Source: Promicromonospora soli (lineage in GTDB: Bacteria > Actinomycetota > Actinomycetes > Actinomycetales > Cellulomonadaceae). Taken from it: DNA of 64,000 nt. Position numbers and translations under genes: made by a program. Positions 6,118 to 51,106 of the stretch are shown here, one piece after another. Under the pieces are notes generated by a model that worked only from the letters and a program-made list of their open reading frames with translations, was not told where the DNA came from and searched no databases. The stretch covers positions 200,117 through 264,116 of the forward strand of contig NZ_BNAS01000003.1 in assembly GCF_014653785.1 (NCBI RefSeq). Direction: 5' to 3'. Each line of letters begins with the position of its first letter. The stretch's first letter is position 1.

Positions 6118-7089
6118 GTGGTGCGCACTGCAGGGACGGAGCGGTTGGTCGTCGCCGTGCTCACCTACCGTCGCCCGGGGCGGATCGCTGCACTGGTCCC
6201 GGTGCTCGTAGAGCAGGCTGCCGCCCTGACCCGCCGGTTCGAGGGGGTCGCGGCGAGCGTGCTGGTGGTCGACAACGACGCGGCCGGCACGGGCGTCGCC
6301 GCGGTGGCGGAGGCGGCGCAGGCCACCGTCGTGCCCGTGACCGCAGTGATCGAGCCCGAGCCGGGCATCTCGGCCGCGCGCAACCGTGCGTTGCGCGCCT
6401 CGGGTGACCAGGACCTGCTCGTGTTCGTGGACGACGACGAGCTGCCGCACACCGACTGGCTCCATGCCCTGTACACGACGTACCGCTCGACGGGGGCGGC
6501 TGCCGTCGCAGGGCCGGTGGTGTCCCGGTACGACGTCGAGCCCGACCCGTGGGTCATCGCGGGCGGGTTCTACGACCGCGGCCATCGCCTAGGACTGCAC
6601 AGCGGGGACACGGTGCCGAGCGCCGCGACGAACAACCTTCTGCTCGACCTGCGCGTGGTGCGGCGGGCCGGCCTGGCGTTCGACCCGGCCCTCGGCCTCT
6701 CCGGCGGCGAGGACACGCACTTCACCAGCTCGCTGACCGCCGCGGGCGGGCGCATCGTCTGGTGCGCCGAGGCCGTCGTGTCCGACGTAGTGCCCGCCGA
6801 CCGGCTCACCCGTTCCTACCTCCTGGCGCGTACTGCCGGGCTCGCAAGCTCCACGGTGGGCGCGGCGCTGCTGCTTGCGCCCGGCCGCGGACGGCGGACC
6901 GCCCTGCGGGCGCGAGTCCTGTGCGCCGGGCTGGCCCGGGGTGCGCTCGGGGCGTTGCAGGTCGCGAGGGCGGCGCTGCAGGGCGACGTCGCAGGGAATG
7001 CGCGTGGTCGGCGATCCCTCGCCAGGTCGCGAGGGGAGCTGCGCGCCGCCTCCGGGAGGGTGCTGCTGCCGTACGCCCGGTCCGGGTGA
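6118..7089 (+). CDS. Glycosyltransferase family 2
   Basis: About 323 residues. Visible GT-A motifs: VVAVLTYRRP at the N terminus, EPGISAARNRALR, the FVDDDELPH metal site near residue 105 and SGGEDTHF further on; the C-terminal third has two hydrophobic stretches and an Arg-rich tail. An AAAGGGG ribosome site at 6106-6112 supports GTG 6118 (or GTG 6121) over GTG 6112, which overlaps that site. It stands alone, divergent from the 4816-6030 operon. Probably adds one sugar of the repeat unit; substrate unknown. Confidence 0.8.
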   Translation: MVRTAGTERLVVAVLTYRRPGRIAALVPVLVEQAAALTRRFEGVAASVLVVDNDAAGTGVAAVAEAAQATVVPVTAVIEPEPGISAARNRALRASGDQDLLVFVDDDELPHTDWLHALYTTYRSTGAAAVAGPVVSRYDVEPDPWVIAGGFYDRGHRLGLHSGDTVPSAATNNLLLDLRVVRRAGLAFDPALGLSGGEDTHFTSSLTAAGGRIVWCAEAVVSDVVPADRLTRSYLLARTAGLASSTVGAALLLAPGRGRRTALRARVLCAGLARGALGALQVARAALQGDVAGNARGRRSLARSRGELRAASGRVLLPYARSG

Positions 7090-7134
7090 ACTCGGGCGGA
7101 ACACCGGCCCGTCGGCATGGCGCACGGTTACGCT
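7084..7134 (+). promoter_or_regulatory. Putative promoter of the 7143 gene with one GGGTGA box
   Basis: GGGTGA occupies 7084-7089, overlapping the previous stop codon. TACGCT at 7129-7134 is a TAnnnT-type -10 element 8 bases before the ATG at 7143. If transcription begins near 7141, the box sits at about -57, the register seen for GGGTGA boxes at 43747, 18824 and 17141. Only one half-site is visible, so support is weaker than for the paired sites. Confidence 0.4.
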
Positions 7135-7142
7135 CCGGGTTC

Positions 7143-7808
7143 ATGCCTGCATCCCCGCGCATCAGCCGTCGTCTGCTTCTTGTTGCCCTCGGCGCGCTCG
7201 TCCTGGTGGCCGTCGTCGCCGCGGCGGTGTTGTCGCTGCGGCCGGACGGCGGGCCTGCGGCCGGTGCGACGGGCTCGGCGAGCCCGGCTGCGTCGTCGGG
7301 TGCGGATGGCGGGGCCGACGGCGAGGACGGGCCGGGCACCGAGCCGTCCAACGGCGGCGGGACCGACGCCGAGCCGGAGCCCGGGGCGGACGAGGGCGCG
7401 GCCCCCGAGCCGCGGGAGACGCTGGACCCCGCGCCGTTCGGTGCCGTCGCGACACCCGAGCCCGGCGTGACCGTGACCGTGCCGTCCGTCGAGGAGGTGA
7501 CCGGGGAGGCGAACGTCCCGGGCGAGGTGGGCGGCCCGGCGCTGCGGTTCACCGTCGAGCTCACGAACGGCACCGGCGAGGTGCTGGACCTGCGGACGGT
7601 GGTCGTGAACGCCTACTACGGACCCGACCGCACACCGGCCACGCCGCTGCTCAAGCCGGGCGGCCGGGCGTTCGAGTCGGAGGTCGGCGCCGACGACGCG
7701 GCCCGCGGGGTGTTCGTCTTCAGCGTCCCGCCCGAGTCCCAGGACCGGGTCGAGCTCGAGATCGACCCGGGGGTCGGCGCGGCGATAGTCGTGTTCACCG
7801 GAGCCTGA
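7143..7808 (+). CDS. Membrane-anchored or secreted protein of unknown function, acidic linker
   Basis: 221 residues. Arg-rich N terminus followed by one hydrophobic segment (residues ~10-30) with no lipobox and no clear signal peptidase site, so a signal anchor is as likely as a cleaved signal. Residues ~35-100 are a low-complexity Gly/Ala/Pro/Glu/Asp linker. The C-terminal ~120 residues hold a beta-sandwich-like domain (RFTVELTNGTGEVLDL, FVFSVPPESQDRVELEIDPG) resembling the DUF4352/telomeric-repeat-binding-like extracellular immunoglobulin-type domains. I do not recognise the family. ATG 7143 probably gives an almost leaderless message. Related domain architecture occurs in the 59-61 kb proteins. 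Confidence 0.65.
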   Translation: MPASPRISRRLLLVALGALVLVAVVAAAVLSLRPDGGPAAGATGSASPAASSGADGGADGEDGPGTEPSNGGGTDAEPEPGADEGAAPEPRETLDPAPFGAVATPEPGVTVTVPSVEEVTGEANVPGEVGGPALRFTVELTNGTGEVLDLRTVVVNAYYGPDRTPATPLLKPGGRAFESEVGADDAARGVFVFSVPPESQDRVELEIDPGVGAAIVVFTGA

Positions 7809-7817
7809 GCCCGGAGA

Positions 7818-7871
7818 TCACCCCTGAGTTCACCCCGGTTTGACTGTGCCGGCTGCCGTGTCCGCTATTAG
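7818..7871 (+). promoter_or_regulatory. Putative promoter of the 7956 gene with paired TCACCC boxes
   Basis: TCACCC occurs at 7818-7823 and 7830-7835, a direct repeat with a 12-base period. A TATTAG sequence at 7866-7871 could be the -10 element, giving a start near 7878, which places the boxes at about -60 and -48. This matches the arrangement at 24243 and 28901. The message would carry a ~77-base leader before the GTG at 7956, which has its own ribosome site. A further GGGTGA is at 7878-7883. Confidence 0.5.
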
Positions 7872-7955
7872 CGTATTGGGTGATCAGTCCTACAGGTCCA
7901 TATCGTCCGGCAGCTGTGCGGTCCGGCGGGTCCATGTCTCCCCAGTGAGGTTCTC

Positions 7956-10900
7956 GTGTCCCATCGCAGCCTGCCCGGCCGGAGAGTCTCTGCCGTCCTC
8001 GCGAGCATCACGCTCGTCGTCACGTCGCTCGTGACCACGCCGTCGGCGTCCGCCACCGAGGTCGCCCAGGTGGCCGCGGAGGTCGTGGAGCCGGCGTCCG
8101 ACCCGGTCTCCGTGTCCGCCGACGCTCTGCCGACCGTGCAGGTCGACGGCATCGTGTGGAAGCAGGTCATCGTCGGCGACACCGTGTACGTGGGCGGCGA
8201 GTTCGCGAACGCCCGGCCCGCCGGTGCCGCGCCCGGCACGAACCTGGTGCCGCGCACGAACCTGCTCGCCTACGACCTGGCGACGGGCGTGCTGGACACC
8301 TCGTTCAACCACACGCTCAACGGCAACGTCACCGACCTGGCCGCTTCCCCGGACGGGACGCGGCTCTACGCGGTCGGCAGCTTCACCACGGTCGACGGCG
8401 TCACCCGCAGCCGCATCGCCGCGTTCAACCTGCCGAGCGGCACGCTGAACACGTCGTTCGCCCCGAACATGAACGGCAACACGAAGTCCGTCGCGGCCAC
8501 GAACACGACGGTCTACGCGGGCGGGTACTTCTCCGCCGTCAACGGCCACACGCGCTACCGGGTGGCGGCCATCAACGCCGCGAACGGCGTCCTGCGCCCC
8601 GGGTTCGTCCCGGTTGTCGACGACCGCCAGGTGCAGTCGATAGTCGTGGCCCCGGACGAGCAGTCGGTGGTGATCTCGGGGACGTTCACCTCGGTCAACT
8701 CCGACACCGCCAACTCCTACGGCATCGCGTGGCTCGACGCCGCCACGGGCGCCAACCGCACGCTGCCCGTCAACTCGCGGGTGCGCAACGCCGGCGACAA
8801 CTCCAGCGTCTTGCGCGTGGCGACCACCGGCGACGCCTGGTACGGCGTCGGCTGGCACTACGGCAGGGGCGGCACCACCGAAGGCACGTTCAAGGTCAGC
8901 TGGACCGACGGCACGCTGATCTGGATCGAGGACTGCCACGGCGACACGTACGACGTGGCCCCGCTGGGCGACGTCGTCTACACCGCGAGCCACAAGCACT
9001 ACTGCGGCAACAGCGGCGGGTTCCCGCAGACGGACCCCTGGACCTTCTACCACTCGACCGCCTGGACCGACGAGGTCCGGGGCACCAACACCAAGGACAT
9101 CTACGGCTACCCCGACCACCCGGGCACACCGCGTCCGGAACCGCTGACCTGGTACCCCCAGACCGATGTCGGGACGTACTCCGGGAAGAGCCAGGCCGTC
9201 TGGACGGTCACCGGCAACGCGGACTACGTGCTGTACGGCGGCGAGTTCCCGAAGGTGAACGGCGTCGCGCAGCAGGGCCTGGTCCGGTACACGAAGCGCA
9301 CTGCAGCGCCGAACGCCTCCGGCCCGGTGCCCTCCGGCGCGGACCTCAACCCACCGGTGGTCTCGGTGTCGGCGGGCACCGTCCGGGTCGGCCTGAACAC
9401 CACCTGGGACCGTGACGACGAGGCCCTCACCTACCGGGTCTACCGCGACTCCGACTCGGCTGCGCCGATCTTCGAGGAGACGATCTCCACCAAGTTCTGG
9501 CAGCCGGAGACACGGACCGTCCGGGACACCGGCCTCGTCCCCGGCTCGAGCCACCGATACCGCCTGACCGTCACGGACCCGTGGGGCAACGTGAAGCGAT
9601 CGGAGTGGATCGACGTCACGGTGTCCGACGCCCCCCGCAGCGACTACGCCGACACCGTCGTCCAGGACGGGGCCACCCACCTGTGGCGCCTCGGCGAGCC
9701 CGCCGGCTCGACCACGACTTACGACTGGGCGGGCGCAGGCGACATGACGGTGCCGACGAGCGTTCAGCTCGGTACCACCGGTGCGATCGCGGATGACCCG
9801 AACACCGCGGTGACGTTCCAGAACACCTCGTCGAGCAGGCTCGTCTCGCCGGCCCGGGTCGCCGGCCCGGACACCTTCTCGATCGAGACGTGGGTCAAGG
9901 GCACCGGAACCGGCAGGATCGTCGGCTTCGCCAACAGCAACAGCGCCACGGGCACGTCCAGCTCCTACGACAGGCACCTTTACATCGACTCCGGTGGTCG
10001 GATCACCTTCGGTGTGTACCCCGGGCAGGTCCGCACGCTCCGGTCTCCGGCACCCGTCAACGACGGCGCCTGGCACCACGTGGTCGGCACGCTCGGAGCC
10101 GGCGGCATGCAGCTGTTCGTCGACGGCGTCCAGGTCGGCACCCGGACCGACACCACCAGCGGGCAGTCCTACAGCGGCTACTGGCGGATCGGCGCCGACA
10201 CCCTGAGCAGCTGGCCCAACCGCCCGCTCCTGAGTGACCGGTTCGCGGGCTCGATCGACGATGTCGCGATCTATCCGACGGCGCTGTCCACGGCCACCGT
10301 CCTCGACCACTACACGGTGGCCGCCAACGGCCGCCCGAACCGTCCGCCCGTCGCGGCGGCGTCGGCGAGCATCAACGGCTTCGACCTGACGGTGGACGGC
10401 ACCGGGTCCTCCGACCCGGACGGCCCGATCTCGTCCTGGCACTGGAACTTCGGCGACGGCGCGACGGGCTCCGGCCCGGAGGCGACGCACACCTACGCCG
10501 AGCCCGGCACGTACACCGTGACCCTCACGGTGACCGACCCCGACGGCGCGACCGACCAGGACACGCTGCAGGTCGAGGCCACGGCTCCCGCGGAGTTCGC
10601 CACCGACGGCTTCGGTCGCAACGTGGCCGGCAGCTGGGGCACTGCCCCGGTGGGCGGCGCCTGGACACTCTCCGGCACGGCGTCGAGCTTCTCGGTCGCC
10701 GGCGGTGAGGGCCTCATGGCGCTTCCCACGGCCGGGACGAACCGGAAGGCCCAGCTGCAGGGCGTCTCCGCCGAGGACGTCGAGATCAGGAGTGTGCTCT
10801 CTCTCGAGGAGATCTCCGACGGCGGCGGCACGTTCGTCTCCCTCGCGGGGCGCACGAGCGGCTTCTCCAGCGAGTACCGGGCCAAGGTCTGGGTCAAGTC

Positions 10901-11231
10901 GACCGGTGCGGTCCAGCTTCAGCTCAACGCCCTGCAGTCCGGGGAGACGACGCTGGCCGCCGCGAACATCACCGGCCTGAGCGTCGGGGCCGGTGAGCGG
11001 CTCGCGGTCCGGATGCAGGTAACGGGCTCGTCGCCGACGACGATCCGGGCGAAGGTATGGGCCGCCGGGACCGCCGAGCCGGCCGCCTGGCAGCTCACGA
11101 CGACCAGCTCGACCCCCGAGCTGCAGGACGCCGGAGCCGTCGGCTACGCGGTGAGCAACGCGGGCAGCGTCACGACCGGCGCGAACGTGGTCAGGCTGGA
11201 CGACTTCTGGGCGGGGCCGCTCGCACCGTGA
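7956..11231 (+). CDS. Large secreted beta-propeller / LamG / PKD protein
   Basis: 1091 residues. Signal peptide at ~1-33 ending SASA. Residues ~65-450 hold delta-60/WD-like repeats (LTTSF-type units such as [15 protein letters not shown], and [20 protein letters not shown]). A fibronectin-III-like domain follows at ~463-561, a concanavalin-like LamG domain at ~568-788 and a PKD domain at ~798-878 ([19 protein letters not shown]). A beta-rich C-terminal domain fills ~881-1091. No LPxTG motif or anchor is visible, so it is probably released or held by binding surface glycan. GTG start with a GTGAGG ribosome site 5 bases upstream. It is coupled by a GTGA overlap to the Wzy-like gene, tying it to polysaccharide export. 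Catalytic function is not evident. Confidence 0.85.
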
Positions 11232-16502: not shown

Positions 16503-17141
16503 TCAGGGCCGGCCGAGCTGCGAGGAGTGCCGCGGCTGGGCCAGCTGTGCGCCGGTGCGTGGGCTCGGCGCGCTCAGGAGCCAGGGCTGCCTGCCTGTGC
16601 CGAGCACGCCGCAGACGGTGTCGGTGGCCGACCAGATCCGCTCGAACACGCGCCGGAAGGCCATCTCGCCGCGCCCGTAGGGGTCCTCGATGTCGAGGTC
16701 GCGGTTCCACGCCGAGTGGTTCAGGCGTTCCAGGCTCACTAGCTCGGGGACCCGAACCCACCGGGTCGCGTCGTCGGTCGCCGAGCGCGGGCCGGGCGAC
16801 GTGCTCAGGACGTGGGCGAGCTCGAGCAGGGTGAACGTCCGCCGGACGGCCTCCGGCACGGCCCGCACCACCGCCGAACGCTGCGCGCGCGTCATCGTGA
16901 TGATCACGGCGGCCGTGCGGATCATCTCCGGAGTGAGCTGGCGCGCGGTGAACTGGCTGCTGTCGAGCCCACGGGACTTCAGCAGATCGCCCATGTGGGG
17001 TGCGATCGGCTCGTGCGCCCTTGCGCGCACGCCGGCGCTGCTGATCTGGACGGTGCCGTCCGTCCGAGCCAGGAGCAGGCGTGCCAGGACGGGGGAACGA
17101 CAGATGTTCCCCGTACATACCGCAAGGATGGTGGTGGCCAT
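16503..17141 (-). CDS. Low-molecular-weight protein tyrosine phosphatase (Wzb-type)
   Basis: 212 residues. The P-loop C-x5-R-S is CTGNICRS, C9 to R15, right at the N terminus, and a DPYGRGEMAF segment supplies the general-acid aspartate. It should dephosphorylate the BY-kinase encoded 75 bases downstream, completing the Wzb-Wzc switch of capsule/EPS synthesis. It is longer than typical 150-residue family members, with an extra C-terminal ~30 residues. The ATG at 17141 is near a predicted transcription start (~17144) with two upstream boxes, so the message is nearly leaderless. It is probably the first gene of an operon with the kinase and a glycosyltransferase. Confidence 0.9.
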   Translation of the reverse strand: MATTILAVCTGNICRSPVLARLLLARTDGTVQISSAGVRARAHEPIAPHMGDLLKSRGLDSSQFTARQLTPEMIRTAAVIITMTRAQRSAVVRAVPEAVRRTFTLLELAHVLSTSPGPRSATDDATRWVRVPELVSLERLNHSAWNRDLDIEDPYGRGEMAFRRVFERIWSATDTVCGVLGTGRQPWLLSAPSPRTGAQLAQPRHSSQLGRP

Positions 17142-17150: not shown

Positions 17151-17213
17151 AGCATGCCGTGGCCTTATGTCCTGGTAGTAGCCGATCAGCGTAGTTTCAC
17201 CTGAAGATCACCC
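17151..17213 (-). promoter_or_regulatory. Putative promoter of the phosphatase-kinase operon with paired GGGTGA-type boxes
   Basis: On the minus strand GGGTGA (17213-17208) and AGGTGA (17202-17197) form a direct repeat with an 11-base period. CATGCT (17156-17151) is a possible -10 element, placing the start near 17144 and the boxes at about -69 and -58. The same orientation and register recur at 43747 and upstream of 18824. Confidence 0.5.
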
Positions 17214-17246: not shown

Positions 17247-18824
17247 TCAGTAGGCCCCGCGCCCCGTGACCACGGCGCGAGCGGTCTGGGCGAGGATGAG
17301 CAGGTCCATGAAGGGCGTCCAGTTCTCGGCGTAGTAGACGTCGAGCCGCACCGCCTCGTCCCAGGGCAGGTCTGACCGGCCGGAGACCTGCCACATGCCC
17401 GTCATGCCGGGCTTGACGAGAAGCCTGCGCTGCATGCGCTCCTCGTAGGCGGCGACCTCGTGCGGCAGCGCCGGCCGGGGGCCCACGAGGCTCATCTGAC
17501 CGCTCAGCACGTTGAAGAGCTGGGGCAGCTCGTCGAGCGAGTACCGGCGCAGGACCCTGCCCACACGGGTGATGCGCGGGTCGGAGCGCATCTTGAACAG
17601 GGGACCCGCTGCTTCGTTCCCCGTGGCCAGCGCCAGCACCTCACGGTCGGCACCGACGTGCATGGTGCGGAACTTGACCATCCTGAAGATCTTGCCGCCG
17701 CGCCCCACCCGTTCCGACAGGTAGAACAGGCCGCCCTTGCTGGTCAGCACCACGGCCAGACCCACACCGACCAGCACCGGGGACACGAGCAGCGTGAGGA
17801 GGGCAGCCAGCGACCAGTCCATGACCTGCTTCACGTGGAACTTGTGCCCTTCGAACCGGGGCGCCGCCACATGCAGCAGCGAGATGCCCGACGCCGGGGA
17901 CACCGTGACGCGCGAGACGGCGAGGTCGGAGAGCTCTGCCGTGAGCATGAGGTCCACCCCTGCCCGCTCGAGCTGCCAGGCGAGGCGGCGGACGACCTCG
18001 GTGGTGATCCGGCCGGACGCGCTCACCGCGACGGCACTCGCGCGGACCAGCGCCGCCGCCTCGCCGACGCGGGACAGGTCGCCCAGGATCGGGACGCCGG
18101 CCACCTCGTCGCCGGGGAGCGTGTCCCGGGGCAGCGAGGTGTCGGGCGCCTGCATCCCGTCCGCCCACCCGTCGGACGGGATGCAGGCGCCCACCGCCAC
18201 GAGTCCCCGCTCGGGAGCGTCGTTGATCAGGCGCACCACCCGCTCGGCCTGCTCGCGGTGCCCGACCACCAGGACGGCGGTCATGCAGCTGCTGCCCTCG
18301 CGCCGGGCTCGCAGCACCGATTGCCGCCAGGCGTATCGCGACGCGATCAGCCCGGCGAGTCCCAGCGGGACCGCGATGGTCTGCGGGAGCACATCTCGCG
18401 CCTCGGCGAAGCTGGTGAGCCACGCGGTCAGGACGAGCACGCTCACGGACGTCCACGTCGCGCTGAGGATCCGCCGGTACTCGGTGAGGTCGCGGCCGAC
18501 CACACGCAGGTCGTACGAGTTGCTCGCGGCCAGCGCCCCGATCCACACAGCTGCGACCAGGGCCGGCACGATGACCGACCGCAGGGCGTTCGGGGAGCTC
18601 GGGGCGCCGAACAGAGGGGTGGCATCGAGAACATAGGCGACGACCGCCGCGCCAACCACAACCAAGGCGTCCGTGAATCGGAGCCGCGCTTGATAACGCG
18701 CCTGCCACGCCGGCCGGCCGAGCGCCGCACGGATATCGTGAAATCCGCGCGCGGGGCGTTCTTTCATCCGCACGCCGGTCATAGGGTGAATCCCGAATTC
18801 GCCGCCTAGTGTCTGGCTTGCCAC
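17247..18824 (-). CDS. Undecaprenyl-phosphate sugar phosphotransferase (polyprenyl glycosylphosphotransferase)
   Basis: 525 residues. Four to five transmembrane helices in the first ~160 residues, a soluble Rossmann-like middle domain, one further helix near 315 and a C-terminal bacterial sugar transferase domain with MVKFRTMHVGAD, RRYSLDELPQLFNVLSG, VGPRPALP and KPGMTGMWQVSGRSD. It transfers a sugar-1-phosphate to undecaprenyl phosphate and so starts the repeat unit. GTG 18824 is chosen because an AAAGGA ribosome site lies 6 bases upstream; a longer frame has no such support. It is monocistronic and appears to have a ~150-base leader. Confidence 0.9.
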   Translation of the reverse strand: MASQTLGGEFGIHPMTGVRMKERPARGFHDIRAALGRPAWQARYQARLRFTDALVVVGAAVVAYVLDATPLFGAPSSPNALRSVIVPALVAAVWIGALAASNSYDLRVVGRDLTEYRRILSATWTSVSVLVLTAWLTSFAEARDVLPQTIAVPLGLAGLIASRYAWRQSVLRARREGSSCMTAVLVVGHREQAERVVRLINDAPERGLVAVGACIPSDGWADGMQAPDTSLPRDTLPGDEVAGVPILGDLSRVGEAAALVRASAVAVSASGRITTEVVRRLAWQLERAGVDLMLTAELSDLAVSRVTVSPASGISLLHVAAPRFEGHKFHVKQVMDWSLAALLTLLVSPVLVGVGLAVVLTSKGGLFYLSERVGRGGKIFRMVKFRTMHVGADREVLALATGNEAAGPLFKMRSDPRITRVGRVLRRYSLDELPQLFNVLSGQMSLVGPRPALPHEVAAYEERMQRRLLVKPGMTGMWQVSGRSDLPWDEAVRLDVYYAENWTPFMDLLILAQTARAVVTGRGAY

Positions 18825-18981: not shown

Positions 18982-19043
18982 ATATTAGGAGCCTTGATAC
19001 ATTCTGTCGCCGCGTGCGAACCCTTTCACCCGAGTGTTCACCC
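18982..19043 (-). promoter_or_regulatory. Putative promoter of the initiating sugar transferase with paired GGGTGA boxes
   Basis: On the minus strand GGGTGA is at 19043-19038 and 19031-19026 (12-base period). TAATAT (18987-18982) is the best -10 element in the region, predicting a start near 18975, so the boxes are at about -68 and -56. The gene-free stretch 18825-19138 is less GC-rich than its surroundings; 18825-18975 would be the transcribed leader and shows no evident riboswitch or attenuator fold. The part beyond the boxes (19044-19138) holds no convincing gene. Confidence 0.55.
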
Positions 19044-42136: not shown

Positions 42137-42234
42137 AATGTAGGTCCCGGCTCCGCGGCGCACCGGCCGGTGCGTTTGAAATCACCCTTGGCTGGTCCGT
42201 ATTCATCCGCCCGGCCGTCTTCACCCACGGGTGA
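42137..42234 (-). promoter_or_regulatory. Putative promoter region of the nine-gene sugar operon with multiple boxes
   Basis: Minus strand: GGGTGA (42187-42182), GGATGA (42208-42203) and GGGTGA (42226-42221) lie at about -57, -78 and -96 from a start near 42130 predicted by TACATT (42142-42137). A TCACCC in the opposite sense (42234-42229) makes a palindrome with the third box, TTCACCC-AC-GGGTGAA at 42220-42235. A further TCACCC overlaps the neighbouring stop codon at 42277-42282. The gene-free stretch is 42076-42276. Confidence 0.5.
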
Positions 42235-42276: not shown

Positions 42277-43500
42277 TCACCCGTGGTTCTCGGGAATTGC
42301 CTCGGCGCGACCCGTCAGGCCGTCGAACACCCGCACGTAGGTCTCGGCCTGACGGCGCCAGGAGAGCTCGCCCACGATCCGCTCCCGCCCGATGCGGCCC
42401 ATCACACCGGCGCGCTCCGGGTCGTCGAGGATCTCGAGGATCGCGTCGCCCAGGTCCGCGGGATCGTTCCCCGCGACGTATCGCGCGGCGGCGCCCGCGC
42501 TGCGGCGGGTCTCGGTCAGGTCCGTGGCCACGACCGGCAGCTCGTGCGCCATGTACTCGAGGGTCTTGTTCATGGTGGAGCGGTCGTTGAACTCGTTGGG
42601 CGGGTCGGGCGTGACTCCCAGGTCGGCGCTCGACAGCCACCGGCCGATCGCCGCGTGGTCCACCCGTCCGGTGAACTGCACCCAGGGGTCCAGGCCCCGA
42701 CGCGTACAGTCCGCGCGCAGGTCTTCCAGCGCGTCGCCGAAGCCGAGCAGCGCGAAGCGCACCTCGGTGCGGCCGCGGCGGTGGATCACGTGGTCCGCCG
42801 CGGCGAGCAGCCGGTCGACGCCGTCCTGTGCGCCCATGATCCCGACGTAGGCCACGAGGTGCTTCGCCTGGTCACGGGCACCGGGTTCCGGGTCGCCGCG
42901 CCGCATGAGACCGGCGTCGGGCGTGCTCAGCACCACCGAGCTGCGGCGCGGGTCGACGCGGCCGCGCCGCTGCGCGATCGCCTGGTAGGAGCCGTTGGTG
43001 GAGATCACGTGGTCCGCGCTGCGGTAAGTGGCCCGCTCCAGCAGCAGCAGCGCCCGGTACAGCAGGCCCCCCCGGCCGAACTTCGCGACGTACACCTCAG
43101 GGCACAGGTCGTGCTGGTCGTAGACGAAACGCACCCCGCGTCGCAGCCGCCACACCCACGCGAGCAGCCAGTAGGTGTCCGGCGGGTTGCACGCCTGGAT
43201 CACCTGGAACGGGGCGTCCCGGTGCACGCGCGCCGCCGCGCGCGCCGTCCGCCACCAGCAGGCGGCGAACTCACGCACGTAGCCCAGCGGGCCCTGTGAC
43301 TCCGGCGGGGCCGGGTAGGAGTAGACGGTGGTCTGGTCGATCCGAGACCGGCTGGGCTCGTCCCGGTTCTCCTGTGGGCAGATCACGCTCACCCGGTAGC
43401 CGGCGTCCGTCAGGGCGCGGCACTCGGACCGCACTCTGCGGTCGAGCCGAAACGGCAGGTTCTGGATGATGACCAGAACGTGTGGAGCGACGGAATACAT
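42277..43500 (-). CDS. Glycosyltransferase family 4
   Basis: 407 residues. Begins VLVIIQNLPFRLDRRVRSECRAL, then VIQACNPPDTYWLLAW, FVYDQHDLCPEVY and a donor domain starting LVAYVGIMGAQDGVDRLL, with FNDRSTMNKTLEYMAHELPVVA near the end; this is a common EPS glycosyltransferase subtype (WcaI/FucA-like). Likely monocistronic and possibly leaderless: ATG 43500 has a TCACCC box 52 bases upstream. Divergent from the large DUF4082 protein gene. Confidence 0.85.
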   Translation of the reverse strand: MYSVAPHVLVIIQNLPFRLDRRVRSECRALTDAGYRVSVICPQENRDEPSRSRIDQTTVYSYPAPPESQGPLGYVREFAACWWRTARAAARVHRDAPFQVIQACNPPDTYWLLAWVWRLRRGVRFVYDQHDLCPEVYVAKFGRGGLLYRALLLLERATYRSADHVISTNGSYQAIAQRRGRVDPRRSSVVLSTPDAGLMRRGDPEPGARDQAKHLVAYVGIMGAQDGVDRLLAAADHVIHRRGRTEVRFALLGFGDALEDLRADCTRRGLDPWVQFTGRVDHAAIGRWLSSADLGVTPDPPNEFNDRSTMNKTLEYMAHELPVVATDLTETRRSAGAAARYVAGNDPADLGDAILEILDDPERAGVMGRIGRERIVGELSWRRQAETYVRVFDGLTGRAEAIPENHG

Positions 43501-43506: not shown

Positions 43507-43552
43507 AGTGTTGACACAGGAATTGCCAGGCAGAAACCTGGGGAGAGGGTGA
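43507..43552 (-). promoter_or_regulatory. Putative promoter of the 43500 glycosyltransferase with TCACCC box
   Basis: Minus strand TCACCC (43552-43547) is 52 bases before ATG 43500; AACACT (43512-43507) is a weak -10 candidate six bases before the ATG. A second, imperfect box (AGGTGA on this strand, 43569-43564) is in reverse sense. The intergenic space is 43501-43746. Confidence 0.4.
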
Positions 43553-43678: not shown

Positions 43679-43740
43679 GGGTGAACCGCGGGTGATACAC
43701 GCTCTCCGCACAGCGCCGACGGCTATTGCGCTCCTAAAGT
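43679..43740 (+). promoter_or_regulatory. Putative leaderless promoter of the DUF4082 protein gene with paired GGGTGA boxes
   Basis: GGGTGA at 43679-43684 and 43690-43695 (11-base period) stand at -68 and -57 from GTG 43747. TAAAGT at 43735-43740 is followed by exactly 6 bases and the GTG, fitting a leaderless message. This is the cleanest example of the reverse-orientation class of boxes. Confidence 0.6.
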
Positions 43741-43746: not shown

Positions 43747-46700
43747 GTGGGCACCTCTCAGGAAATTCCGCAATCTCGGTCCCGCCGCGGCCTTCGGCCC
43801 CTGGCGGTCTTCGTCGTGGGCGCATTCGTCCTGTCGTCGGCGCAGCTGGCGGTCGTTCCGGCCGCTACCGCTGCCGACCCGTGCGCTCCCGGGGGCAACG
43901 CTGTTGTCTGCGAGAACTCGAAGCCGGGCACGTCCCCCCAGGTGTGGGACATCGATGGCGCGGGAGACCCAAGCATCCAGGGGTTCGCCACCAAGATGAG
44001 CGTCGACACGGGAAACCGGGTCGAGTTCAAGGTCAAGACCAACGCGCGGGCGTACACGATCGACGTCTTCCGCACGGGCTGGTACCAGGGGCTCGGGGCG
44101 CGCAAGGTAGCCCAGGTCACGCCGAGCGCCGCACTGCCGCAGAACCAGCCGGAGTGTGCCTGGGACGTGACCACCGAGCTGGTCGACTGCGGGAGCTGGG
44201 CCGTGTCGGCGGCTTGGGACGTCCCGGCCACCGCAGTGTCCGGGGTGTACATCGCGCTCCTGACCCGGACCGACACCGGCGGACAGAGCCACATCACGTT
44301 CGTCGTGCGTGACGACGGGTCCACCTCCGACATGGTCTTCCAGACGGCGGACACCACGTGGCAGGCCTACAACACCTACGGCGGCTCCAGCTTCTACCAG
44401 GGCGGCGCCAACGACCGGGCCTACAAGCTGAGCTACAACCGCCCGTTCAACACACGCGGGCTGCAGGCCGGCCGTGACTTCTACTTCAGCGCCGAGTACG
44501 CGATGGTCCGGTTCCTGGAGCAGAACGGCTACGACGTCACCTACATCGCGGGGGCGGACACCCACCGCGACGGGGCTCGGCTGCTGAACCACGACGCGTT
44601 CCTGTCGGTGGGCCACGACGAGTACTGGTCCGGCCCGCAGCGAGCGGCCGTCGAGAAGGCCCGCGACGCCGGGGTGCACCTCGCCTTCTTTGCCGGCAAC
44701 GAGGTCTACTGGCGTACGCGCTGGGAGCCGTCCGTGGCCGGCCCGGCGGCCGACTACCGCACCCTCGTGTCGTACAAGGAGACCTGGGGCCGCGCCAAGA
44801 TCGACCCCTCCACCGAGTGGACCGGGACGTGGCGGGACCCGCGGTACGCGAGCAAGGCTGCGGGGGCAGGCCTCCCCGAGAACGGCCTCATCGGCACCCT
44901 GTACACGACCAACTATTCGGACCTGCCCGTCACTGTCCCGGCCGAGGAGGGCAAGCTGAGGATCTGGCGGGGCACGTCGCTGGCCTCCCTTGCCGCCGGG
45001 ACCTCTCAGGCGCTGGCGCAGCACACGGTCGGGTACGAGTCGAACGAGGACCTCGACAACGGCTTCCGGCCCGAGGGTCTGATCCGGATGTCGAAGACCG
45101 TGGGCAACGTACCCGAGTACCTGCAGGACTTCGGCAACACGGTGGCGCCCGGCGTGACCACGCACACGATCACGATGTACCGGGCCCCGAGCGGCGCGCT
45201 GGTGTTCTCGGCCGGCACGGTGCAGTGGTCGTGGGGCCTGGACCAGGAGCACGACGGGAGCGGCGCCCCTGCGGACGCCCGGATGCGCCAGGCGACGGTC
45301 AACCTGTTCGCGGACATGGGCGTGCAGCCGGACACCATCGCGTCCGGCATCACCCCTGCGACGCAGACGACGGACGCGACCGGGCCGACGACGCAGATCC
45401 AGAGCCCGGCAGCGCAGGCGTCCTTCAGCGGCGGGGCCAAGGTCACCGTCACGGGCACGGCCACGGACGTCGGTGGCAGGGTGGCCGGCGTGGAGGTGTC
45501 GCTGGACGGCAAGACGTGGCACCCCGCCCAGGGCCGCGCGAGCTGGCAGTACACCGGCCAGGTCTTCGGGTCGGGCCCGGTCCAGGTCCGTGCCCGCGCG
45601 ATCGACGACAGTGCGAACATCGGGGCCGCCGCGTCCGTAGGCGTCCAGGTGACCTGCCCCTGCACGGTGTTCGGCGACACGACGCCCGCGAACGGGGCGG
45701 CGAGCGACACGTCGGCGGTCGAGCTGGGCCTGCGGTTCGTCGCGGCGGCCGACGGCTACGTGAGCGGCGTCCGGTTCCACAAGGACGCGGCCAACAAGGG
45801 CGTGCACTACGGCACGCTGTGGAACGCGGCCGGCCAGCAGCTGAGCCGCGTCCAGTTCACCGGTGAGACGGCGTCCGGGTGGCAGAAGGCGTCGTTCACC
45901 ACGCCGGTCCCAGTCGTCGCGGGTCAGAAGTACATCGTGTCCTACACCGCACCCCTCGGCCGGTACAACGTGACCAGCGGGGCGTTCCTCGCCCGGGGGC
46001 GCGACGCCGGTCCGCTCACCGTCGAGGGCGGCTTCGGCGTCGCTCCGGCAGGCCTCTACGGCTCGCCCGGAACCGTCCCGACGCAGTCCTGGGAGAACTC
46101 CGCCTACTACGTCGACCCCGTGTTCACATTCACGGACACCTCGCCGCTGGTCGTCACGGCGCGCGCCCCCGTCTCCGGGGAGGTCAGCGTGCCCCTGAAC
46201 GCCCCGGTGCGCGCCACGTTCTCCAAGAGCGCCGTCGCGTCCTCGATCGACTTCGCGGTGACCGACGAGGCGGGTACGAGGGCCCCCGGGGTCGTGTCGT
46301 ACGACGCGCCCACGCGCACCGCGACCTTCACCCCGTCGGCGCCCTGGGCCGGGTTCGTCACGTACACGGTGACGGTCACCGCCCGGTCCGCCGAGGGCAC
46401 CGCGCTGTCCGCCGGCGGGACCTGGAGCTTCCGTACCGTCCGACCGCCGTCCGCGGCGTGCCCGTGCGGCCTGTTCGAGGACACCGTAGTGCCGGACATC
46501 ACCGCGGATGCCGACAACGACGCCGTCGTGCTGGGCATGCGCTTCTCGCCGAGGGTGAACGGCAAGATCGTCGGGATGCAGTTCTGGAAGTCGACGCAGA
46601 TGGTCGGCCCGTTCGCGACCACCCTGTGGGGGCCGAGCGGGCAGGTGCTCGCTCAGGCGACGGTCACGAACTCGGTCCCGCAGGGCTGGCAGGACGTCGC

Positions 46701-47691
46701 GTTCGCCACTCCTGTCGACGTGACTGCCGGGCAGGTGTACACGGTGGGCTACCGTGCGCCGACCGGCAAGTATCCGGCCACGCTCGGGGCGCTCGGCGCC
46801 CCGCGCACCGTCGGCAGCCTGAGCACGCCGCAGAACGCCGGTGTGTACGTCTACGGCTCGGGGCGTCCGACGACGGCGACCTCGACGTCCTACCTCGTCG
46901 ACGTGCAGTTCCAGCCAAACCCGGCCGTACCGGTGGTCGTGTCGCGGACGCCGTCCGCCGACGCGGTCGACGTGCCGGTGGGCACCGACCTGTCGGTCAC
47001 GGTGTCGCAGCCGCTGGCCTCCGCGGGAACAACACTGACGCTGACCGGCCCCGACGGTCAGCCCGTGCCAGGCACCCTTTCCGTCAACGACGCGACGGCG
47101 ACCCTGGCGCTCCCGGACCTCTTGCCGGGGGCGAGCTATACGGCGAAGTTCACCGGGAAGACCACCGACGGGTCCTCGGTCGGGCCGGACACGTGGTCGT
47201 TCACCACGAAGGCGCTCGACGGCCAGTGCCCATGCCTGATCTTCGGCGGCGACGTGCCGCCCATCGCGGCGGCCGACGACGGCGCGGCCGTGGAGCTCGG
47301 CACCCAGTTCTCCGCGAACCGCAACGGCGTGGTCCGCGCGGTGCGGTTCTACCGGGGTGCTGGGAACACCGGCCCGCACACGGTGTCGGTGTGGTCGGCC
47401 GGCGGCACTCGCCTGGCAACCGCCCAGGCGCCGTCGGGCGGGGGCGACGGCTGGCAGACGGTCCAGCTGCCGACGCCGGTGACGATCACGGCGGGGACCA
47501 CGTACGTCGTCTCCTACCTTGCGCCGAACGGCCACTACGCCGCGGGGCACAACTACTTCGCGCAGCCGCGCACCGTCGGTCCGCTGACGGCGCCGGCGAA
47601 CGCCGGCCGCTACCTGTACGGTGGCGGGTTCCCGCAGTTCTCGTGGCAGAGCGCCGGGTACTGGGTCGATCCGGTGTTCACGGACCAGTGA
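43747..47691 (+). CDS. Large secreted protein: N,N-dimethylformamidase-beta-like domain, Ig-like and three DUF4082 domains
   Basis: 1314 residues. Signal peptide ends near residue 42 (ATAA). Residues ~45-500 match the glutamine-amidotransferase-like beta-subunit domain of N,N-dimethylformamidase (VFRTGWYQGLGARKV, SVGHDEYWSGPQRAAV, GNEVYWRTRWE). An Ig-like domain follows (~551-635), then DUF4082, Big_5-like, DUF4082, Big_5-like, DUF4082 (about 637-795, 798-898, 903-1058, 1060-1155, 1160-1314). DUF4082 modules start with a Cys-x-Cys or Cys-x-hydrophobic-Phe pattern. True amidase activity is doubtful; a glycan-binding or glycan-processing exoprotein is more likely. GTG start from the leaderless promoter geometry. 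Four bases before a lipoprotein gene. Confidence 0.8.
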   Translation: MGTSQEIPQSRSRRGLRPLAVFVVGAFVLSSAQLAVVPAATAADPCAPGGNAVVCENSKPGTSPQVWDIDGAGDPSIQGFATKMSVDTGNRVEFKVKTNARAYTIDVFRTGWYQGLGARKVAQVTPSAALPQNQPECAWDVTTELVDCGSWAVSAAWDVPATAVSGVYIALLTRTDTGGQSHITFVVRDDGSTSDMVFQTADTTWQAYNTYGGSSFYQGGANDRAYKLSYNRPFNTRGLQAGRDFYFSAEYAMVRFLEQNGYDVTYIAGADTHRDGARLLNHDAFLSVGHDEYWSGPQRAAVEKARDAGVHLAFFAGNEVYWRTRWEPSVAGPAADYRTLVSYKETWGRAKIDPSTEWTGTWRDPRYASKAAGAGLPENGLIGTLYTTNYSDLPVTVPAEEGKLRIWRGTSLASLAAGTSQALAQHTVGYESNEDLDNGFRPEGLIRMSKTVGNVPEYLQDFGNTVAPGVTTHTITMYRAPSGALVFSAGTVQWSWGLDQEHDGSGAPADARMRQATVNLFADMGVQPDTIASGITPATQTTDATGPTTQIQSPAAQASFSGGAKVTVTGTATDVGGRVAGVEVSLDGKTWHPAQGRASWQYTGQVFGSGPVQVRARAIDDSANIGAAASVGVQVTCPCTVFGDTTPANGAASDTSAVELGLRFVAAADGYVSGVRFHKDAANKGVHYGTLWNAAGQQLSRVQFTGETASGWQKASFTTPVPVVAGQKYIVSYTAPLGRYNVTSGAFLARGRDAGPLTVEGGFGVAPAGLYGSPGTVPTQSWENSAYYVDPVFTFTDTSPLVVTARAPVSGEVSVPLNAPVRATFSKSAVASSIDFAVTDEAGTRAPGVVSYDAPTRTATFTPSAPWAGFVTYTVTVTARSAEGTALSAGGTWSFRTVRPPSAACPCGLFEDTVVPDITADADNDAVVLGMRFSPRVNGKIVGMQFWKSTQMVGPFATTLWGPSGQVLAQATVTNSVPQGWQDVAFATPVDVTAGQVYTVGYRAPTGKYPATLGALGAPRTVGSLSTPQNAGVYVYGSGRPTTATSTSYLVDVQFQPNPAVPVVVSRTPSADAVDVPVGTDLSVTVSQPLASAGTTLTLTGPDGQPVPGTLSVNDATATLALPDLLPGASYTAKFTGKTTDGSSVGPDTWSFTTKALDGQCPCLIFGGDVPPIAAADDGAAVELGTQFSANRNGVVRAVRFYRGAGNTGPHTVSVWSAGGTRLATAQAPSGGGDGWQTVQLPTPVTITAGTTYVVSYLAPNGHYAAGHNYFAQPRTVGPLTAPANAGRYLYGGGFPQFSWQSAGYWVDPVFTDQ

Positions 47692-47695: not shown

Positions 47696-48496
47696 ATGAA
47701 CCCCAGGAGAACTCGCACGGCCCCGAAGAGGGGCCGCCTGGCCGCGCCGCTGCTTGCCGCCGCGCTGCTGACCGCCTGCACGGCCGGGCCGGGCCAGGGA
47801 CCGGATGACGGCCCCGCCTCGGAGCCGGGCCCCAGCGCGGTCCGGACGACCCCGCCGGCAGAACGGGGCGAGGCCGGCTCGGGCACGGCTGGACCGGACG
47901 ACGCGGACCCGGGCGACGCGGATCCGGACAAGGCTGGACCGGACAAGGCTGGACCGGACACCGCCGAGCCAGGCACGGCCGACCCGGACACGGCCGACCC
48001 GGACGCCGCAGGAGAGCCCACGCCGACTCCGAGCGGGCGCAGCGGTGGCCAGAGCGGGGGCGAAGGTAGCGAGGTGGCTCCGGCCGGGTCGCAGGACCGG
48101 TCTCCGGGCGACAGCCTGGGTGACACCCCGGTCCCGTCCGCCGGCCGGCTGAGCACGGCTCTGCGGACGGGAAGCGCCGCGGGCCTCGTCCGGGGCTTCC
48201 CCGACGACGTGGTGCTGGTTCCCGCCGGCGCCAAGGTGGCTTCCAGCTCCGTTACCGGGTCGGACGGCCGGTACCAGGTGACGCTCGACGCGGCCGTGGA
48301 CGCCGCCTGCACCGACGTCCTGCTCGACTACCGCGTCTGGTTCACGACCGGGGGCTTCGCCGAGACCGGCACGACCACCCGCCCGGGCCGCACGACGGTG
48401 GAGCTCGAGCGGAACGACGGCAGCGTCATGCTGGGCACCGCCCGGAGTTCCGCCGGGTGTGAGGTCACGGTGTTCGCCACGCTGTCGGCGCGGTGA
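47696..48496 (+). CDS. Lipoprotein with acidic repeat linker
   Basis: 266 residues. Lipobox LLTAC with Cys27 after a basic N terminus and hydrophobic core, so it should be lipidated and face outward. Residues ~40-130 are Asp/Pro/Gly/Ala repeats (PDKAGPDKAGPDTAEPGTAD) built from a 15-base unit repeated exactly twice and then variants. The C-terminal ~110 residues form a globular beta-rich domain with cysteines (AACTDVLL, SSAGCEVTV) of no known family. ATG begins four bases after the DUF4082 protein stop, so it is co-transcribed and may anchor or assist that protein. Confidence 0.75.
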   Translation: MNPRRTRTAPKRGRLAAPLLAAALLTACTAGPGQGPDDGPASEPGPSAVRTTPPAERGEAGSGTAGPDDADPGDADPDKAGPDKAGPDTAEPGTADPDTADPDAAGEPTPTPSGRSGGQSGGEGSEVAPAGSQDRSPGDSLGDTPVPSAGRLSTALRTGSAAGLVRGFPDDVVLVPAGAKVASSSVTGSDGRYQVTLDAAVDAACTDVLLDYRVWFTTGGFAETGTTTRPGRTTVELERNDGSVMLGTARSSAGCEVTVFATLSAR

Positions 48497-48579: not shown

Positions 48580-49608
48580 TCACTCCACGACGCTGGGGGA
48601 CCAGGCCTGCGGGATCGCGACGGCCGGGTCGGCCGTTCCGTCGGCGGTCAGGGACCAGACATCCGTGGTGCCCGGTTCGTCGGCGCGGGGCAGACCGTAG
48701 AGAAGGGTCACATCGTCGAGCCAGGCGATCTGGTCGTCCACCGACCGCTGCTCGGCGTCGAGCACGGTGACCGTCATCGTGGCCAGGTCGAGCACCGCCG
48801 GGGTCCAGTGGGGTGTCACGTCACCGGGCTTGCGGGCGTCGTGCTTGAAGGCCAGCCGGGTCCCGTCGGGGGACAGCGAGGGGCACTCCACGCCGTCGAG
48901 CAGGGTCACGAGCGTGCGCTCGGCGAGGTCGCCGCGGACGAGCCAGGTGCGCCCCTCGGACCGCGACTGGACCGTGGCATAGAAGTACCGTGCGTCCACG
49001 AAGGTCACACCCCATACGTTCCGGTCGACAGGGGCCAGCCGCTTGCCATCGGCGAGGAGCGTGAAGTCCTCGAGGTTGCCGGACACGTCCGCCCCGTCCG
49101 CGCCGTGCACCGTCGTCTCCGTGGAGAAGCCGGTCGCTGCGTAGGAGTGGCCCGTCACGAACGAGGTGGTGGCGACCAGGCCGTCCGGCGACAGCCGGGT
49201 CCGGCTCGGCATGCCGGGCAGGGGCCAGCTCGCCGTGGTGCGCCATGCGGCGTCGAGCACCTCGGCCTCGTACGTGGTGACGACGCCGCGGCGCGTGCGC
49301 AAGCAGACGGTCGTCTCGCCGTCGGAGTCCACGCGGTCGCACACGGCAGGCGTGACCTCACGGGGGCCGGACAGGTCGTCCAGGGCGACGGCCGCCACCC
49401 TGCCGTACAGGTCGCCCGGGGCGGTGCCACGGAACAGGACGTGCGGGCCGTCCAGCACGCCCTCGGCCATCTCGACCTGGGTCGGGGCCGCATGCTCGGC
49501 CCGCGCCTGGCGGACCTGGGCCGCGACATACCAGCCGGTGCCGGCCAGCACCACGAGGACCAGCACGGCGAACGACGTCCGACGGCGGATGGCGGGGCTC
49601 CGGTTCAC
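48580..49608 (-). CDS. Membrane-anchored TolB-like beta-propeller protein
   Basis: 342 residues. One N-terminal transmembrane anchor (~12-32), then repeated blade-like segments: SRTRLSPDGLVATTSF, FTLLADGKRLAPV, CPSLSPDGTRLAFKHD, QIAWLDDVTLLYGL, ending VWSLTADG. The SPDG repeats are the hallmark of TolB/WD40-like propellers. It probably acts outside the membrane as a binding scaffold. The GTG start lies in a GTGA overlap with the MFS stop, so the two are co-expressed. Confidence 0.75.
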   Translation of the reverse strand: MNRSPAIRRRTSFAVLVLVVLAGTGWYVAAQVRQARAEHAAPTQVEMAEGVLDGPHVLFRGTAPGDLYGRVAAVALDDLSGPREVTPAVCDRVDSDGETTVCLRTRRGVVTTYEAEVLDAAWRTTASWPLPGMPSRTRLSPDGLVATTSFVTGHSYAATGFSTETTVHGADGADVSGNLEDFTLLADGKRLAPVDRNVWGVTFVDARYFYATVQSRSEGRTWLVRGDLAERTLVTLLDGVECPSLSPDGTRLAFKHDARKPGDVTPHWTPAVLDLATMTVTVLDAEQRSVDDQIAWLDDVTLLYGLPRADEPGTTDVWSLTADGTADPAVAIPQAWSPSVVE

Positions 49609-50984
49609 GCCGGGGCCTCCTCGACCAGATCAGGGTCCCGTTCCAGACGGCCGCCTCGCATCAGGTAAGCACACACCGGAACCGCGACCAGCAGGGCTGC
49701 AGCCGCGATCCACAGCGCGTCGACGCGGCCGGACGCGTACCACAGCACGCCGAACCCTGCCGATGCGACCATCCGTGTGACCGCGGTGACCGTCTGCGCG
49801 GTGCCGATCGCGGTGGCCCGGACCGACGTCGGTACCAGCGCGCTGGTCAGGGCCGCGAGGACGCCGTCGGTCGTGGCGTAGAAGGTGCCGAGGAGCACGA
49901 GCGCTGCCACGGTCGTGGTCGCGCCGGGGAACGGGGCGGCCGCACAGGCGTAGGCGCCGACCAGCAGCAGGTGCCCCCAGACCAGGACCCGGGCGCGGCC
50001 GACGCGGTCTGCGAGCCGGCCGACCGGTGCGGCGAGCAGCATGTACACGGCGTTCGTCCCGACGTAGAGCAGCGGGAACCACTGCGTAGCGAACCCGTCG
50101 CGGTCCTGCAGCGCGAGGTAGACGAACCCGTCGCCGACTGTCAGGAGGCCGAGGAGCCCGGCGACGACCAGCAGCCGCACGGTGGCCCCGCGGCGCAGGA
50201 AGGCCCAGGAGAAGGGGCGTCCGGTCAGCTCCAGGCCGCCCGGCGCGTCGCACGTGCACCCCTTGCACTTGGGCAGGCCGCGGTCCTCGCGAGTCCGATG
50301 GGTCCGCAGCCAGGCCGCGCGCCGCGGTCGGAGGTCCGGGACGAGGAGCACGAGGGCGCCGACTCCGAGCACCGCCGCGCCGAGCGAGACCACGAAGACC
50401 GTCGTATAGCCGTCCGGCACAGCCCACAGGACCACGAACGCGAGCAGCGGTCCGAGGGCAGCGCCCGCGGTGTCCAGCGCCCGGTGCACCCCGAAGGAAC
50501 GCCCGAGGTTGCGGGGGTTCGACGACGCGGCGATCAGCGCGTCCCGCGGGGCCGTGCGTATCCCCTTGCCGACCCGGTCCGCCACGACGAGCGACGCGAC
50601 CCCCGGGAGGCCCGAGGCGAACAGCAGGCCTACGCGGGTGAGCGCCGACAGGCCGTAGCCCACGGCGGCCACCCACTTGGGCCGGTCGGTGCGGTCGGCG
50701 GCCCAGCCGCCCGCCACCCGGACCAGGGCGCCCGCGCCCTGTACGAGCCCGTCGACGATGCCGTAGGCGACCACCGACATGCCGAGCGCTGCCGTGACGT
50801 ACAGCGGGAGGATCGCGGCGACCGCCTCCGAAGAGACGTCCGTCAGGAAGCTGACCACGCCGAGCGTCACAACGGTGGACGAGACCCGGCCGGCGCGCCG
50901 GCGGCCGGCGTCCGGCCGGCCGCGAGCCGGGGCGCTCGTCGGTCCGCTGGCCTCTCCAGGTGCGGCACGAACTAGCCCTGACAT
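49605..50984 (-). CDS. Major facilitator superfamily transporter
   Basis: 459 residues, twelve predicted helices. The DRTDRPKWVAAVGYGLSAL loop after helix 2 carries the MFS motif A pattern and GIRTAPRDALIAAS resembles a subgroup of uncharacterised drug-type exporters. An odd cysteine cluster, KCKGCTCD (C-x2-C-x-C), lies in the central cytosolic loop and could bind metal. ATG 50984 with a GGAG ribosome site is used; a GTG at 50885 would remove a Pro/Arg-rich tail. Operon with the TolB-like protein. Confidence 0.8.
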   Translation of the reverse strand: MSGLVRAAPGEASGPTSAPARGRPDAGRRRAGRVSSTVVTLGVVSFLTDVSSEAVAAILPLYVTAALGMSVVAYGIVDGLVQGAGALVRVAGGWAADRTDRPKWVAAVGYGLSALTRVGLLFASGLPGVASLVVADRVGKGIRTAPRDALIAASSNPRNLGRSFGVHRALDTAGAALGPLLAFVVLWAVPDGYTTVFVVSLGAAVLGVGALVLLVPDLRPRRAAWLRTHRTREDRGLPKCKGCTCDAPGGLELTGRPFSWAFLRRGATVRLLVVAGLLGLLTVGDGFVYLALQDRDGFATQWFPLLYVGTNAVYMLLAAPVGRLADRVGRARVLVWGHLLLVGAYACAAAPFPGATTTVAALVLLGTFYATTDGVLAALTSALVPTSVRATAIGTAQTVTAVTRMVASAGFGVLWYASGRVDALWIAAAALLVAVPVCAYLMRGGRLERDPDLVEEAPA

Positions 50985-51044
50985 GGTGCTCCAGCGGATC
51001 TCGGCTCACGCGGCCCGTGTGGGCAGATGGTGCGATGCCCTGCC

Positions 51045-51106
51045 AGGTTACGAGCGACCCGGCCCGTCGTGGCGTGTCAGGCCCGGGTGAACTGGGTTTC
51101 TCACCC
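51045..51106 (-). promoter_or_regulatory. Putative promoter of the MFS operon with two opposed boxes
   Basis: Minus strand TCACCC (51090-51085) and GGGTGA (51106-51101) are at about -52 and -68 from a start near 51038 predicted by TAACCT (51050-51045). Each box is in the register typical for its own orientation. The gene-free stretch 50985-51148 holds no other feature. Confidence 0.4.

Follow-up and report, generated by a model that had tools for sequence, protein, structure and literature searches.

The exopolysaccharide locus on contig NZ_BNAS01000003.1 of Promicromonospora soli raises the question of what a short hexamer, TCACCC (GGGTGA on the other strand), is doing in so many of its intergenic regions. 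We studied a window of 64,000 nucleotides from the 5.38 Mb genome, comprising positions 200117-264116 of this contig (C3) on the forward strand. Pfam matches identify a Wzx/Wzy-type exopolysaccharide locus with a Wzz/AAA kinase-like protein, a low-molecular-weight phosphatase, a priming sugar transferase, Wzy, Wzx, glycosyltransferases, aminotransferases and a deacetylase, the match of the Wzz-like protein being weak; large secreted proteins lie near both ends. Of ten loci with a similar Wzx found in named genomes, seven are from Promicromonospora (80-90% identity). Our analysis suggests that the TCACCC boxes are probably half-sites of one transcription factor, which would co-regulate this surface-glycan locus and other envelope genes in Promicromonospora and several related genera. 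Genes were called with our own codon-composition script rather than a standard gene finder, and "intergenic" is therefore approximate throughout.

It is evident that the boxes are concentrated between the genes of the locus. Within 7084-51106, TCACCC occurs 27 times in 3,636 intergenic bp (7.4 per kb) and 31 times in 40,387 genic bp; in the window outside this interval there are 3 copies in 2,361 intergenic bp, and the whole window holds 75 copies compared with 46.4 in shuffled sequence. In Markov simulations of 18 intergenic segments of the locus (3,549 bp, 400 runs), the mean was 2.5 boxes and the maximum 8, compared with 26 observed, and tandem pairs spaced 11 or 12 bp, of which five are observed, never arose. 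We also compared the window with 66 control stretches from the same genome (186 kb intergenic), which avoided stretches taken earlier, most of those having been chosen for box matches. Against these controls, the intergenic regions of the window contain 30 TCACCC where 6.4 are expected (P about 1e-11) and 19 TTCACCC where 1.9 are expected; the two motifs rank first in enrichment among 6-mers and 7-mers, respectively. If a cluster is defined as two or more boxes that lie within 45 bp and include a TTCACCC, the window has eight such places, and 5 of the 66 control stretches contain such a cluster. When 14 hit-chosen or flanking stretches are included, the background rises only to 1.2 per kb (285 copies in about 234 kb), and the density in the locus is still about six times as high. 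The same bias is found in seven Promicromonospora loci (74 copies in 10.4 kb intergenic versus 84 in 131.8 kb genic sequence), and a single copy was counted in about 1 kb of intergenic sequence of a locus from Actinoplanes whose Wzx is 44% identical.

A preliminary description of this DNA, made from its letters alone, had proposed a shared operator with tandem half-sites one helical turn apart at several promoters of one glycan locus. That proposal is supported, and its boxes are present where it placed them. Its claim of an excess over chance agrees with our simulations and controls, except that the intergenic length is nearer 3.6 kb than 2.5 kb. Its list of boxes needs amendment: those at 7084 and 42277 overlap stop codons, that at 31088 falls on the ribosome-binding region of a wzz-like gene, and that at 24113 is near an uncertain gene start. 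The first three are what one would point to in order to explain the boxes by chance, ribosome-binding sites or coding bias. This explanation is contradicted by the comparison with the control stretches, by the simulations and by the conserved positions of the boxes, and we consider it hardly credible.

To examine these positions, 33 genes of the window were mapped to 60-kb stretches of five relatives, giving six species in total, and box positions were counted from the start codon. The priming glycosyltransferase gene (17247-18824, minus strand) is preceded by a 12-bp tandem pair, GGGTGAA twice in the direction of the gene (19026-19043), which is present in 6/6 species at -207 to -237 and is also found before homologs in other genera. 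Its predicted -10, TAATAT (18982-18987), follows the pair by 37 bp, with GCGACA located by eye 17 bp upstream; a NNGACA hexamer at this distance from the -10 was recognized, also by eye, in the Promicromonospora promoters of this gene. The polysaccharide deacetylase gene (28248-28901, minus strand) has a 12-bp pair (28946-28963) at -62/-50 in all six species, and its predicted -10, CACGAT (28908-28913), is invariant in six aligned sequences. Upstream of the glycosyltransferase gene 24243-25505 (plus strand), the 12-bp pair (24181-24198) is at -62/-50 in the window, G077 and G097 and at -63/-51 in G105, and the orthologous start is missing from G117 and G006. The predicted -10 of this promoter is CACTAT (24231-24236), and GTCACTATCG is conserved in 4/4 sequences. 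The preliminary description had given these last two promoters an identical geometry, with boxes at -62 and -50, CACTAT or CACGAT, six bases and then the start codon, and this is exact.

Other promoters of the locus carry conserved boxes in other arrangements. Three boxes (23011-23056) precede the minus-strand run from 22974 to 19139; two of the box positions are kept in 6/6 species (-62/-41 in four, -63/-42 in the window and -65/-43 in G006). The genes of this run encode an AMP-ligase, a PLP decarboxylase, an acyl-carrier protein and a hexapeptide transferase, and their adjacency within the glycan locus suggests a carrier-bound acyl decoration of the glycan. A single box (24113-24118) upstream of the minus-strand gene that starts near 24066 is at -52 or -53 in 6/6 species. 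The sugar-nucleotide operon starting at 42075 (minus strand) has several boxes (42182-42234), of which one is at -112 in 6/6 species; the inverted pair TTCACCC-AC-GGGTGAA is also kept in all six (-157 to -159 and -149 to -151 in five, -143/-134 in G117), and a further box at -133/-134 is present in five species and absent from the window. The box (43547-43552) before the glycosyltransferase gene 42277-43500 (minus strand) is at -51/-52 in 6/6 species, of which five have a second, everted box 16 bp away; the window lacks it (it would be at -67). An 11-bp tandem pair, GGGTGA twice (43679-43695), precedes the DUF4082/Ig surface protein gene (43747-47691, plus strand); it is at -68/-57 in the window and G077 and at -69/-58 in G006, and a search of the remaining three species did not find this gene. 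Upstream of the MFS gene (49605-50984, minus strand), an everted pair GGGTGA/TCACCC with 16-bp spacing (51085-51106) is shared by the 3/3 species with the gene (-122/-106 in the window, about -106/-90 in the other two). The box at 31088-31093 is at position -10 of the wzz-like gene (30298-31083, minus strand) in 6/6 species, and AAAGGGTGAA, directly upstream of the start, is identical in all 7 aligned sequences; it may be only a ribosome-binding site, or both a ribosome-binding site and an operator. Genes internal to operons mostly lack boxes in the six species.

Two further pairs are at the left of the locus. The 12-bp pair TCACCC-N6-TCACCC (7818-7835, plus strand) is upstream of a secreted propeller/LamG/PKD protein gene (7956-11231), and homologs of this protein in three loci (L269, L296 and L299) also carry a 12-bp pair. 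An 11-bp pair (17197-17213, read on the plus strand) upstream of the low-molecular-weight tyrosine phosphatase gene (16503-17141, minus strand) is imperfect, its boxes being TCACCT and TCACCC. The spacings given in the preliminary description are correct for 43747 (11 bp) and for 7956, 18824, 24243 and 28901 (12 bp), and the 17141 pair qualifies only with an imperfect box.

We then consider what the spacing of the boxes implies. In the loci of the genus, direct repeats peak at 11-12 and 21-22 bp, everted pairs at 16 bp and inverted pairs at 7-9 bp (start to start), and conservation extends to the inverted, everted and 21-22 bp forms. The distance to the predicted -10 also recurs. The -10 is 32 bp downstream of the forward pairs of 24243 and 28901, and among 38 forward pairs in the family TAnnnT is most frequent at this same distance (5 cases, 2 in the next bins), with CACGAT in L247 in addition; as L246/L271 and L296/L299 are homologous, the independent cases are fewer. 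TAnnnT lies at a distance of 37-39 or 48 bp from 13 of 46 reversed pairs. For the priming glycosyltransferase, the last GGGTGAA and TAnnnT are 37-39 bp apart in eleven sequences (L238 and L286 being one place) and 48 bp, one turn more, in L248, L266 and L273; the exceptions are L295, with no TAnnnT at those distances, and L302, with no pair in the direction read.

What is observed is the boxes with their enrichment, the conservation of their positions and the recurring distances to predicted -10s; from these we infer a single protein that binds tandem sites cooperatively and activates transcription. Copies of the factor would sit side by side on half-sites one turn (11-12 bp) or two turns (21-22 bp) apart, and the same factor could also occupy inverted or everted half-sites. 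At the best-conserved promoters the distance from the end of the pair to the -10 is 32, 37-39 or 48 bp, which puts the pair just upstream of the expected place of a -35. The factor is thus most likely an activator, which would touch RNA polymerase from one face of the helix. At 24243, 28901 and 43747 (the last with a predicted -10 TAAAGT at 43735-43740) six bases separate the -10 from the start codon, so that leaderless transcripts are predicted for these three genes.

The variety of arrangements could instead reflect a repressor or matrix switch that keeps surface genes silent by binding to half-sites in flexible clusters, in the working style of SinR or MucR. Those regulators of exopolysaccharide also use one short half-site in flexible arrangements ahead of matrix genes. 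Direct, inverted and everted pairs, single sites, a group of nine boxes before a surface-protein gene and the wzz box on a ribosome-binding region would all suit such a protein. The half-site of SinR and MucR differs from the box here, however, and the boxes are clear of the predicted -10s at the aligned promoters; a recurring distance upstream of the -10, lengthened by one helical turn in three promoters, is seen more typically with activators. The evidence leans to activation, and we regard silencing as unlikely, though the most serious of the alternatives considered here.

To see how far the putative operator extends, we searched for the 12-bp pair, counting coding matches, in genomes of the same order. 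There are 3-10 pairs per genome in all 11 genomes of the genus, 0-6 in 110 other genomes of the family and 0-7 in 138 genomes from other families of the order. We examined 90 loci, 30 of them as returned and 60 picked by hand among the matches listed, with a leaning to the genus; 69 are intergenic by our gene calls, and 84 genes lie at most 450 bp downstream of them. Fourteen of these genes encode priming glycosyltransferases (13 distinct, as L238 and L286 are the same place). The others include five surface proteins belonging to a single group, which has a weak Ig-like match, four lipoprotein-like proteins, three propeller proteins, three proteins that read as pectate-lyase-like without a family call, two class A penicillin-binding proteins (PBPs), two ECF-type sigma factors and many singletons of other kinds. 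The pairs before surface-protein, lipoprotein, PBP and sigma genes indicate that the regulon is broader than the glycan; the preliminary description had expected a motif confined to glycan genes, which does not hold in the relatives. Some pairs may be unrelated to the regulon: the matches in the P. soli genome include coding ones (L007, L008, L013, L018 and L020), and some of its intergenic pairs adjoin genes for a helicase, an HxlR regulator, a kinase and GmrSD restriction proteins, or RecG. We give about even chances to a more specific picture in which an undescribed master regulator of the cell surface of the family reads TTCACCC half-sites in a two-orientation code, the -10 being 32 bp from forward pairs and 37-39 or 48 bp from reversed ones. 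This regulator would turn on the exopolysaccharide locus as one unit together with surface proteins, a lipoprotein and a class A PBP, and the transcripts of some targets would be leaderless.

Which protein would bind the boxes? The preliminary description reported that no regulator gene is present, and no transcription-factor family was found among the Pfam-scanned proteins of the window (E 0.001; one scan at E 1), with the ORFs at 48074-48496 and at 63720, the latter cut off, outside the scan. It favored the OmpR family, whose operators are tandem direct repeats about one turn apart, as are the 11-12 bp pairs. Within this family, the boxes could be PHO boxes, by which PhoP/RegX3 would control the glycan locus, for example so that phosphate-rich wall polymers are replaced when the cell is starved of phosphate. 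The PHO core of S. coelicolor is given as GTTCACC in 11-nt direct repeats (PMC4415409). The Streptomyces PHO box, bound by PhoP, the ortholog of RegX3, resembles the boxes in its tandem direct repeats one helical turn apart and in its TTCACC core, GTTCACC being close to TTCACCC. Moreover, part of the pairs in the P. soli genome are spaced 11 bp, and a regulator that is RegX3-like by its sequence adjoins the pst genes at C5:363-383 kb. In the family, however, GTTCACC-N4-GTTCACC occurs in 66 of 121 genomes, and 17 of the 30 loci examined adjoin a PstS-like gene, whereas the glycan pairs are mostly spaced 12 bp, read A/T-TCACCC and precede surface genes. The best-conserved boxes read AATCACCC or ATTCACCC at 12 bp, with a minority at 11 bp, and none of the 84 genes downstream of 12-bp pairs matches a pst gene of the P. 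soli genome, the sole match being an OmpR-family regulator. The exact PHO-type pair is present in just 2 of the 11 genomes of the genus, so that its own PHO box is less well defined. Taken together, the glycan pairs lack the 11-nt GTTCACC repeats and the phosphate genes that mark a PHO box, and control by PhoP/RegX3 is improbable.

Two other OmpR-family proteins were compared. The direct repeats bound by M. tuberculosis PhoP have a TCAC core, and one regulator of the genome (L112) is similar to this protein, as named from its sequence. Those repeats share the layout of the boxes and differ from them in the sequence beyond TCAC and in the 12-bp spacing, the M. tuberculosis sites being described as 7-bp repeats with a 4-bp spacer (PMC4832192). 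MtrA, the envelope response regulator, governs wall and division genes in mycobacteria (PMC6265350), and a gene that is MtrA-like by sequence is present in the genome (L109). Its reported sites are GTnAC direct repeats in Streptomyces and GTCACAgcg in Mycobacterium, and looser 7-bp half-sites are given too (PMC13189361). These sites are also direct repeats about one turn apart, but the boxes lack the GTnAC half-site: G precedes TCAC in 1 of 144 boxes, which come from related species and are not independent, and the comparison covers the GTnAC form only. Binding by MtrA is thus very improbable. A search for an autoregulated OmpR-family regulator was also negative: among the 20 loci with Trans_reg_C matches in the genome, the pho locus is the sole one with 11- or 12-bp TCACC pairs. 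The OmpR-family gene beside a 12-bp pair in L244 was rejected as well, the P. soli genome having no clear ortholog (best 42%). The conserved inverted, everted and 21-22 bp sites, the 12-bp spacing, which differs from the 11-bp PHO period, and the association of GTTCACC pairs with pst genes weigh on the OmpR assignment, which is possible but unproven.

NarL/FixJ-type response regulators can use mixed site arrangements, and one with BldM-like DNA specificity could bind the boxes. Such a reading differs from the one favored here only in the identity of the protein, and the probabilities we attach to the various readings need not sum to one. S. venezuelae BldM recognizes TCACcCgnncGgGTGA (PMC4125116), which contains the same TCACCC half-site, and the genome has 33 GerE-domain matches above the cut-off. 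The class I site of BldM is one inverted pair with N4, whereas the boxes form mainly direct repeats (11/12 and 21/22 bp) besides everted (16 bp) and inverted (7-9 bp) pairs; the inverted N4 arrangement occurs 0 times in the window, the seven loci of the genus and the 66 controls. BldM itself was sought by synteny, as bldM and whiD are divergent neighbors in S. venezuelae: none of 35 GerE matches is within 5 kb of the eight WhiB-family matches, a result that covers a syntenic bldM only. On balance a BldM-like protein is a doubtful candidate. Of the 35 GerE matches, 30 had loci, and none has an 11- or 12-bp tandem TCACCC pair upstream. A PspC-domain histidine kinase gene (C3:184373-186.4 kb), matched in 26/26 genomes searched and near the exopolysaccharide locus by coordinates in several members of the genus, has a GerE-type regulator gene directly behind it in P. 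soli. This two-gene candidate (C3:184-187 kb) was set aside: its everted pair overlaps the coding start of the kinase and is mostly not kept as a pair in the relatives. The factor appears to be distinct from PhoP/RegX3, MtrA and BldM; it could plausibly be of the OmpR or NarL type, or else belong to another family.

Several results weigh against one activator reading all of the boxes. No regulator gene was found, and none of the OmpR, GerE and kinase-linked candidates examined has a convincing autoregulatory pair. The spacing census also shows many direct repeats at 17 and 38 bp, a poorer fit to helical phasing. A constant distance, named as a test in the preliminary description, is seen for the predicted -10s of several promoters, but 32 of the 38 forward pairs lack TAnnnT or CACGAT at 32 bp and 33 of the 46 reversed pairs lack TAnnnT at a distance of 37-39 or 48 bp. 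A crude signal-peptide test found no clear excess downstream of the pairs (36/84 versus 394/1081 control genes). Several boxes of the window, e.g., 31178, are missing in the relatives, and the genes at 6145, 7206, 7956, 12481, 14740, 16427 and 17141 have no ortholog in the stretches of the five relatives. Finally, the two conservation sets overlap and are not independent, as four of the five relatives have contigs equal in length to those of loci in the Wzx-based set.

If one factor does bind these boxes, they would make up an operator and a regulon that are new but familiar in kind, and provide a concrete operator for coordinating a surface glycan with other envelope genes in a Gram-positive soil actinobacterium. 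The promoters of 24243, 28901 and 18824 are small and well conserved and could be used as baits for the regulator. In the portion of the open-licence literature that was searched, we found no account of the motif as an operator of glycan genes, which is weak evidence, as TTCACCC does occur in Streptomyces papers.

Box groups were also noticed at other places. In L246 and L271, a forward 12-bp pair with TAGTAT exactly 32 bp downstream precedes an ECF-type sigma gene with a long C-terminal extension (803 aa in L246). In P. soli, nine TCACCC boxes, five of them in a single tandem cluster, are found at L086:9716-10137 (C5:89.7-90.1 kb), upstream of a gene (8901-9583, minus strand) whose product, a short proline-rich secreted protein, has a C-terminus that is sorting-like. 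At L149:8596-8621, TTCACCC-CC-GGGTGAA followed by ATCACCC is upstream of a gene for a repetitive secreted protein (6979-8559, minus strand). Box pairs of 11 and 22 bp (L097:9575 and L098:2412) precede two NlpC/P60 wall-hydrolase genes. Boxes at L088:3098-4242 (C11:3-4 kb) lie in the interval that separates an rmlA-like nucleotidyltransferase gene from a divergent LytR-CpsA-Psr gene, and are candidates for another glycan or wall target.

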